A stretch of DNA of 64,000 bases, from positions 1 to 64,000 of the forward strand of contig CALEDJ010000051.1 in NCBI GenBank assembly GCA_937951485.1, read 5' to 3'. Within the stretch, counting starts at the first letter, position 1. Every line of letters starts with the position of its first letter. Made by a program: the position numbers and the translations under genes. Below, piece after piece: positions 897 to 50,212 of this stretch. Origin of the DNA: an uncultured bacterium. GTDB lineage: Bacteria > Hydrogenedentota > Hydrogenedentia > Hydrogenedentales > CAILVY01. The notes beneath the pieces are model-generated. The model was not told the DNA's origin. It was given only the letters and a program-made list of their open reading frames with translations, and ran no database searches.

Positions 897-1142
897 CAAT
901 TCCTTCCTGCCGCAACGTCATACCCATCCATTGTCTCAGACCTATGATCAAGATTCTCTGCCCGTAGGCCACCGTCATCGCTCCGCCTTGGCCAGGCATT
1001 GCAGGAAACGCGCCAAAAAGAGAATTAAATTGACGATACCCTTCCTTGATCCCGAACCGGGGGCATTCACACCTCGATATAGAACCCCGCCCTTTTATTA
1101 TATCATGCGGATGCCAACTTGACCGGATTGTTTACCGCATTA
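897..1142. other. Intergenic region upstream of the secreted repeat protein
   Basis: I see no gene here. On the minus strand a TATAAT hexamer lies at 1102-1097, about 200 bases before the start of the leftward gene, but no good -35 box is spaced from it. It is only a weak promoter candidate. Confidence 0.3.
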
Positions 1143-1751
1143 CAGTGCTGTCCAGAATATTCTGAGTTTCGAGAAAAGCCTTTATCATCGCAATCTTTCC
1201 CCTCACCCCACCCCTCTCCCGGAGGGAGAGGGAGCAACGGCATTCCGCAGGTCGCACGGTAAACGCCCGCTCCCGGAGGGAGAGGGAGCAAAGGCATTCC
1301 GCAGGTCGCACGGTAAACGCCCGCTCCCGGAGGGAGAGGGAGCAACGGCATTCCGCAGGTCGCACGGTAAACGCCCCCTCCCGGTGGCAGAGGGAGCAAC
1401 GGCATTCCGCAGGTCGCACGGTAAACGCCCGCTCCCGGTGGCAGAGGGAGCAATGGCATTCCGCAGGTCGCACGGTAAACGCCCGCTCCCGGAGGGAGTG
1501 GGAGCAAAGGCATTCCGCAGGTCGCACGGTAAACGCCCCCTCCCGGTGGCAGAGGGAGCAACGGGCGCGACGGTCGCGGTGCCGACGCTGAATACCCCCT
1601 TTCCCGGAGGAAGAGGGGGCAACAGCATGCCTCTGGTTTCGCCATATACACCTGGCGATATAAGCCATAATTCACCTCTTGGGGACTAACAGCATACCTC
1701 AGGTTTATTCATATACACCCTCTCCCTCCGGGAGAGGGGTGGGGTGAGGGG
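1143..1751. repeat. 54-bp tandem repeat element bounded by inverted CCCCTCACCCCACCCC ends (copy 1)
   Basis: The core begins with CCCCTCACCCCACCCCTCTC at 1199 and ends with its reverse complement at 1751. Inside are six head-to-tail copies of a 54-bp unit (GGCATTCCGCAGGTCGCACG phased at 1239, 1293, 1347, 1401, 1455 and 1509). A diverged seventh unit and two relics of a second unit type (near 1629-1657 and 1692-1725) follow. Every unit carries a CTCCC-GGAGGGAGAGGG palindrome. The 56 bases left of the core (1143-1198) closely match the reverse complement of the right flank of the second copy at 49.6-49.87 kb, so the element extends beyond the array. Because 54 is divisible by three, long ORFs of 140-190 codons run through it; I treat them as artefacts. 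Confidence 0.85.
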
Positions 1752-1789
1752 AAACAACACGTTTTGAAGAACACTGATCGCACTTAACG

Positions 1790-49304: not shown

Positions 49305-49595
49305 GACTTCAGTGTTTCCATAACTTCATCATTTCCGTGTGAAGTCGCTTTGACCGAGTACTGTTTTGCCGGATTCCAAAGCATGTGCGCAAACGAGGAT
49401 CATCCAATCTGACATTTTGAATTTGCCTCAGTGTTGTCCAGAACAGGTTATTGAGGAAATGAAAAGATATGGCCGGAACTCTTTGAGAAACCTGTGGAAT
49501 CAAGATGATGTGGCGGCCTTGTCCTGTGCGCAAACCTCTCCCCGACTATTCCTGAGATATCATTGCCCCCTTCACCGAGGTGTCCCGTCTTATTT
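49305..49595. other. Intergenic region without a recognisable gene
   Basis: No supported ORF or RNA was seen. It lies between the nucleotidyltransferase remnant and a repeat element and may be gene debris. Confidence 0.35.
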
Positions 49596-49868
49596 CCCCT
49601 CACCCCACCCCTCTCCCGGAGGGAGAGGGTGTATATGGCGAAACCTGGGGCATGCCGTCGCTCCCTCTCCCGGAGGGAGAGGGTGTATATGGCGAAACCT
49701 GTGGCATGCCGTCGCTCCCTCTCCCGGAGGGAGAGGGGTGGGGATGGTCGTCATGGACCAGAATCTCCCCGACGACTCCCTCTCCCTCCGGGAGAGGGGT
49801 GGGGTGAGGGGAAAGGTTAATATGATACAAGGCTTTTCTCCGATCTCAGAATATTTTGGACCGCACTG
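49596..49868. repeat. 54-bp-unit repeat element with inverted CCCCTCACCCCACCCC ends (copy 2, reversed)
   Basis: The core runs from CCCCTCACCCCACCCCTCTC at 49596 to its inverted copy at 49811. Two units (TGTATATGGCGAAACCTG at 49630 and 49684) are exactly 54 bases apart, and a shortened module follows. The 57 bases to the right (49812-49868) match the left flank of copy 1 in reverse complement. Alignable blocks are AATATTCTGAG, GAGAAAAGCCTT, TATCAT and CTTTCCCCTCACC. The element is therefore inverted relative to copy 1. Confidence 0.85.
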
Positions 49869-50212
49869 AATTTATCTCTCATGCCATCTTCTGATTTTAT
49901 CTATCGGCTTCAGTTCAAATACAACGTGATATAACATTAGCCGTTCACCGGCTGATATACCGCAAATACCTGGTCTCGGGCCGCATCCATTTCCTGGAAA
50001 GCCGACGATTTGGCCCGGCAACAGGCAAACAGTCTGCGGAGTTCTTCCAAAGCCGCCGCGCAGGTCCTCGCGCTCATGGTTCAAATCTTCCCTGATGAAG
50101 GGTAGATGCAGCGCAGCGGAATCCACCATTCTCCAACAAAAACATCTTGAGATGGTGGGTTCCATTTCGTTTCGCTTCCCTGTACCCACCCACCCTGCGG
50201 CTCAAATTTTCA
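49869..50212. repeat. Intergenic region with small imperfect palindromes
   Basis: GGTAGATGCAGCGCAGCGGA at 50101-50120, followed by ATCCACC, repeats the stretch at 33274-33297. A second related palindrome, GGTGGGT opposed to ACCCACC, lies at 50154-50194. No coding gene is supported; the ORF at 49872-50189 is unconvincing. Confidence 0.5.

Follow-up and report, generated by a model that had tools for sequence, protein, structure and literature searches.

We analyzed a window of 64,000 nucleotides (contig C51 of a 77-contig, 4.55-Mb assembly), which carries two repeat elements in opposite orientation, element 1 at 1143-1776 and element 2 at 49429-49868 (Table 1). A preliminary description had treated them as two inverted copies with a common 54-bp unit length, the same inverted boundary and a shared outer end in opposite orientation, and all of this is borne out: the unit length is common to both arrays (1212-1564 and 49609-49737), the boundaries match their inverted counterparts at 100% in element 1 (1196-1232 with 1718-1754) and 98% in element 2 (49593-49632 with 49775-49814), and the outer ends (1143-1182 versus 49829-49868) are 88% complementary over 40 bp. 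The start of the first copy and the end of the second are real, but the inner limits of 1751 and 49596 left both elements slightly too short (1776 and 49429 are the true ones), since the second terminal repeat of each element had been overlooked. The two unit types distinguished at that stage are, on the other hand, one spacer on opposite strands, with an alignment score of 13 for the opposite strand versus 5 for the same strand (2,000 shuffles reached a maximum of 12). The spacers look different because the elements are in opposite orientation (copy 1, AGCAACGGCATTCCGCAGGT...; copy 2 reversed, AGCGACGGCATGCCCCAGGT...), and what had been read as relics of a second type in copy 1 is indeed an older diverged unit, at 1592-1652, but one of the same type. 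The long open reading frames noted across the arrays exist (190, 178, and 167 amino acids) and match no Pfam family; the window has no Rfam matches.

Table 1. Coordinates and parts of the two elements in the window
Feature	Position	Strand	Remarks
Element 1, left target-site duplication ACCGCATTA	1134-1142		6/9 bases identical to right flank ATCGCACTT
Element 1, entire MITE, L end to shortened R end, 634 bp	1143-1776	+	
Element 1, L end with terminal inverted repeat CAGTGCTGTCCAGAATA	1143-1198	+	at least 44 L-end matches in own genome
Element 1, outer boundary, intrastrand triplex motif; tail outside, hairpin CCCTCTCCC/GGGAGAGGG inside	1196-1232	-	inverted match at 1718-1754, 100%; E. coli TMECO list
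Element 1, array of 6.5 tandem 54-bp units (hairpin plus ~33-bp spacer)	1212-1564		Tandem Repeats Finder, 94% match
Element 1, older diverged unit, type as in array	1592-1652		82% complementary to copy 2
Element 1, inner boundary, intrastrand triplex motif, inverted	1718-1754	+	
Element 1, R end with internal deletion, terminal CAGTGTT..TCAAAAC retained	1755-1776	-	3 mismatches to terminal inverted repeat
Element 1, right target-site duplication ATCGCACTT	1777-1785		
Element 2, left target-site duplication AATTTGCCT	49420-49428		7/9 bases identical to AATTTATCT
Element 2, entire MITE, 440 bp, L to R on minus strand	49429-49868	-	
Element 2, R end, 165 bp, terminal inverted repeat CAGTGTTGTCCAGAACA	49429-49593	+	at least 40 matches in own genome, 0 in 99 relatives
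Element 2, intrastrand triplex motif, R side	49593-49632	-	
Element 2, array of 2.4 tandem 54-bp units	49609-49737		Tandem Repeats Finder, 98% match
Element 2, intrastrand triplex motif, L side	49775-49814	+	
Element 2, L end with terminal repeat CAGTGCGGTCCAAAATA	49812-49868	-	
Element 2, right target-site duplication AATTTATCT	49869-49877		

With respect to the rest of the assembly, we mapped L and/or R ends at about 73 loci (counted by hand over the fetched loci; a few pairs of contig-end halves may represent one element), which rules out that the window holds the only two copies. The 16-mer CCCCTCACCCCACCCC occurs 121 times in the genome and 0 times in the reversed-read control, which, together with the L-end matches, indicates that the repeats are not due to chance. 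At nearly all loci, in either orientation, a 57-bp L end is followed by a triplex motif (+), the core, a triplex motif (-), and a 165-bp R end. Apart from the terminal repeat CAGTGYTGTCCAAAAYA, the two ends have little in common, and the sequence outside them is unrelated between loci, so that the shared flank is the end of an element and not an unrelated conserved gene end. Complete elements are mostly 216 to 634 bp long, with one of 985 bp, and contain no transposase gene. Copies are diverged and often internally deleted, and mean pairwise identities of 77% for L ends and 81% for R ends indicate that the family is not very young. A search of 99 relatives, the nearest of which belong to other genera, gave no match to the R end, so that within this set of genomes the family appears to be confined to this species; a 20-mer of the R end had no match in viral contigs. 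Of the 154 contig ends, about 32 fall inside an element or no more than a few hundred bases away from one (for example C13:1-204 and C25:1-390), with C36 and C53 having an element in or near both ends, which makes the MITE family a main cause of assembly breaks.

The terminal inverted repeat is imperfect and 17 bp long, and it stands at both ends of 29 to 47 bounded elements; its pattern is found at 121 places with at most two mismatches, against 1 + 1 in the control. Among 47 candidate elements, whose ends were placed automatically and in some cases poorly, 22 are flanked by 9-bp duplications matching at 7 or more of 9 bases (6 perfectly), whereas shuffling the flank partners 2,000 times gave on average 0.6 such elements and never more than 5. 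Flank identity is 24 to 32 of 47 at each of the nine positions and then falls to 7, 13, and 10 of 47 beyond them. A clear target duplication is missing in half of the elements, and that of element 1 (6/9) is weak alone and significant across the family. Taken together, 9-bp duplications and terminal inverted repeats are the signature of DDE-type insertion with a 9-bp stagger, indicating that the copies were placed by transposition. The earlier suggestion that the element is dispersed or mobile and grows internally in tandem thus holds, given the ~73 loci, the terminal repeats, the duplications and the many cores stepped by 54 bp. We consider it probable, at roughly 85%, that both window repeats are members of a non-autonomous transposon (MITE) family served by an IS4-type helper in trans.

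A helper transposase linked by the same ends, as had been proposed, was not found in the own assembly: there is no match to DDE_Tnp_1 (PF01609), and a protein search with an IS4 transposase recovered just two short C-terminal relics. These relics (G000:C58:75381-75515 and C18:52640-52759) are related, decayed IS4-type C-termini that do not have MITE ends nearby. With no complete source of this enzyme present, a dormant family is one possibility, and loss of the helper from the assembly is another. Three complete IS4-family elements of 1,323 to 1,328 bp (L148, L149, and L150) are present in the same order, with ends CACTACTGTCC, CACTGCTGTCC, and CAGTGCTGTCC and exact 9-bp duplications CCCGGCAAT, AATATCTAT, and TTGTCAAGT. 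Their transposases match NF033592 (IS4), PF14294 (DUF4372), and PF01609 and show a YREK-type motif (Y..R...E......K), with K replacing R in L150 only outside the defining YREK residues. The IS4Sa subgroup has ends of the form CA------T, sizes of 1,150 to 1,750 bp and duplications of 8 to 10 bp (PMC2266710, Table 1); L148 to L150 fit this subgroup and serve as a model of the missing helper. The MITE ends (CAGTGYTGT) and 9-bp duplications agree with IS4Sa in the same two respects, whereas the window family has no transposase, spans 216 to 985 bp and carries extra repeat cargo. MITE and same-order IS4 ends have CAGTGCTGTCC in common and differ in the next bases. An L-end block, GAAAAGCCTTT, also found in L150, is at most suggestive of a possible remnant of a transposase 3' end. 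An IS4Sa-like DDE transposase of the IS4 family, supplied in trans, would bind the terminal repeats, excise the element and reinsert it with a 9-bp stagger.

Among GTDB genomes, the terminal repeat pattern is widespread in several phyla, and an intact parent with CAGTGYTGTCCAAAAYA was not recovered, since contigs mostly stop inside the element. Chitinivibrionales bacterium Bin_432 has two small elements (294 and 231 bp; L175:1135 and L211) with CAGTGYTGTCCAAAATA-type ends and perfect 9-bp duplications (GCTGCAGCT and AGAATGCAT), apparently MITEs of this end type in another phylum. The several phyla and these two loci indicate that MITEs with such ends are not unique to the own genome. The many sphingomonad matches to the terminal repeat (L157, L162, L164, and others) are united by a conserved flank, gcgtggggt, and seem to belong to a different element; here, the strongly conserved block gcgtggggtCAGTGTTGTCCAAAACAGACTTCTGTTCAA recurs in many Sphingomonas, Novosphingobium, and Sphingobium genomes and resembles the terminus of some other mobile element.

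Inside the ends, an inverted pair of hairpin motifs, with G-rich third-strand tails pointing outward, surrounds 54-bp units of hairpin plus spacer. Judged by its sequence, the boundary block is a motif already described by Holder et al. 2015 (PMC4666352), the G/C-rich intrastrand triplex motif (TM). The window motif CCCTCTCCCTCCGGGAGAGGGGTGGGGTGAGGGG and E. coli no. 1 CCCTCTCCCTGTGGGAGAGGGCCGGGGTGAGGGC are identical at 29 of 34 positions, with differences confined to the loops and the last base; the stem CCCTCTCCC/GGGAGAGGG and the third strand GGGGTGAGGG are identical to TMECO no. 1, and the layout is that of a pyrimidine-purine hairpin followed by a matching purine third strand (Table 1 of PMC4666352). 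As the E. coli motif forms a triplex by CD and NMR (PMC4666352), triplex folding of the window motif is predicted from the literature. Stem, third strand, and inverted pairs are thus common to both systems, but in the own genome the motif is nearly always inside the MITE (118 of 125 copies in the fetched loci, by hand count), its hairpin is amplified as a 54-bp minisatellite, and its tails point outward, whereas those of E. coli pairs point inward by their listed coordinates and strands.

Such a hairpin pair also brings to mind REP, REPIN, and BIME elements with their RAYT enzymes (PMC3733652), which are likewise short palindromes in inverted pairs at high copy number. A RAYT, that is, an IS200/IS605-type tyrosine transposase, might then act on the hairpins and carry the outer ends as passengers; we regard this as improbable, although the core is a REPIN-like inverted hairpin pair with tails and similar tails-outside pairs lacking MITE ends occur at G096 and G268 loci. 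The window family has no GTAG/CGTC tag, the own genome has no Y1_Tnp (PF01797) gene in an assembly that is 94% complete, and the TM-rich genomes G205, G165, G162, and G192 are without Y1_Tnp, which TM-free genomes often have. There was no clear pattern between motif abundance and RAYT genes across 32 genomes. The 9-bp duplications with terminal inverted repeats are a DDE signature, and nearly all own motif copies lie inside such repeats.

Slightly less probable still is that the host maintains the element, for example as a nucleoid, terminator, or recombination site, and that selection, not selfish transposition, has spread it. The hairpin motifs lie between genes in the window and occur widely among bacteria, and triplex motifs are associated with genome instability (PMC4666352), as a host function might lead one to expect; the target duplications and terminal repeats nevertheless show placement by transposition, and the copies are diverged and often internally deleted.

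Returning to the MITE reading, core lengths include a ladder of 97 + 54n bp, with 43 (a single palindrome), 97 (8 copies), 151, 205 (5 copies), 259 (2 copies), and 313 bp. Many cores fall off this ladder (163, 217, 280, 394, and 549 bp, for example) through unit sizes of 52, 53, 56, 61, 65, or 120 to 127 bp or through extra pieces. Unit number would shift by replication slippage or unequal recombination between hairpins, giving 97 + 54n, and gain or loss of units would be independent of transposition, taking place after or between transposition events. That the whole is an ordinary minisatellite, grown by slippage at several places with flanks alike by chance or gene conversion, is very hard to credit, as the slippage-like ladder is accompanied by L and R ends that are conserved (77% and 81%) at ~73 loci and beyond which the sequence is unrelated; the 9-bp duplications bordering the elements refute it.

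More than 260 bacterial genomes are known to carry the triplex motif. A looser motif pattern was found in 61 of 291 genomes across the tree, and matches in the reversed-read control were nearly absent. In most of the other genomes that were sampled, the motif lies outside any such MITE, indicating that it is an independent repeat; loci from G012, G127, G210, and G065 have mostly unrelated flanks and no MITE ends, so that the idea of a generally MITE-borne motif was rejected. Some copies in G250 and G188 are inside other repeated sequence. We observe very patchy abundance, with 46 copies in G012 versus 0 in G004 of the same genus and about 150 in the 2.6-Mb genome G188, where, at loci L353 to L357, the motifs adjoin another dispersed repeat, GATGACGTAGGGGCGGG...GCCCGCC, possibly as a composite repeat. 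We can only speculate that IS4-type MITEs load, amplify, and spread the triplex motif, that its capture by DDE transposons accounts in part for how patchily it is distributed over the bacterial tree, and that the hairpin array may help the element, for example through stalled forks exposing its ends to the transposase.

Each of the ingredients is known, and the combination of a MITE with a triplex-hairpin minisatellite appears to be new. A minisatellite in a bacterial MITE has a precedent in BrickBuilt of Porphyromonas gingivalis (PMC4596501). That MITE, as here, has a leader and a tail end, small terminal inverted repeats, and an internal minisatellite whose copy number varies; it is also intergenic, with a narrow host range and no identified autonomous parent. 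The likeness is one of layout; BrickBuilt differs in its 23-bp unit without a triplex hairpin and in its 19 copies. A full-text search of openly accessible papers, as opposed to subscription journals, returned no description of a triplex motif borne by a MITE. One lineage thus carries nearly all of its triplex motifs within a transposon that is datable and bordered by target duplications, and their hairpin has also turned into a minisatellite with a clean length ladder, which provides a natural series of repeat expansion beside transposition. As a practical effect, the MITE family breaks assemblies.
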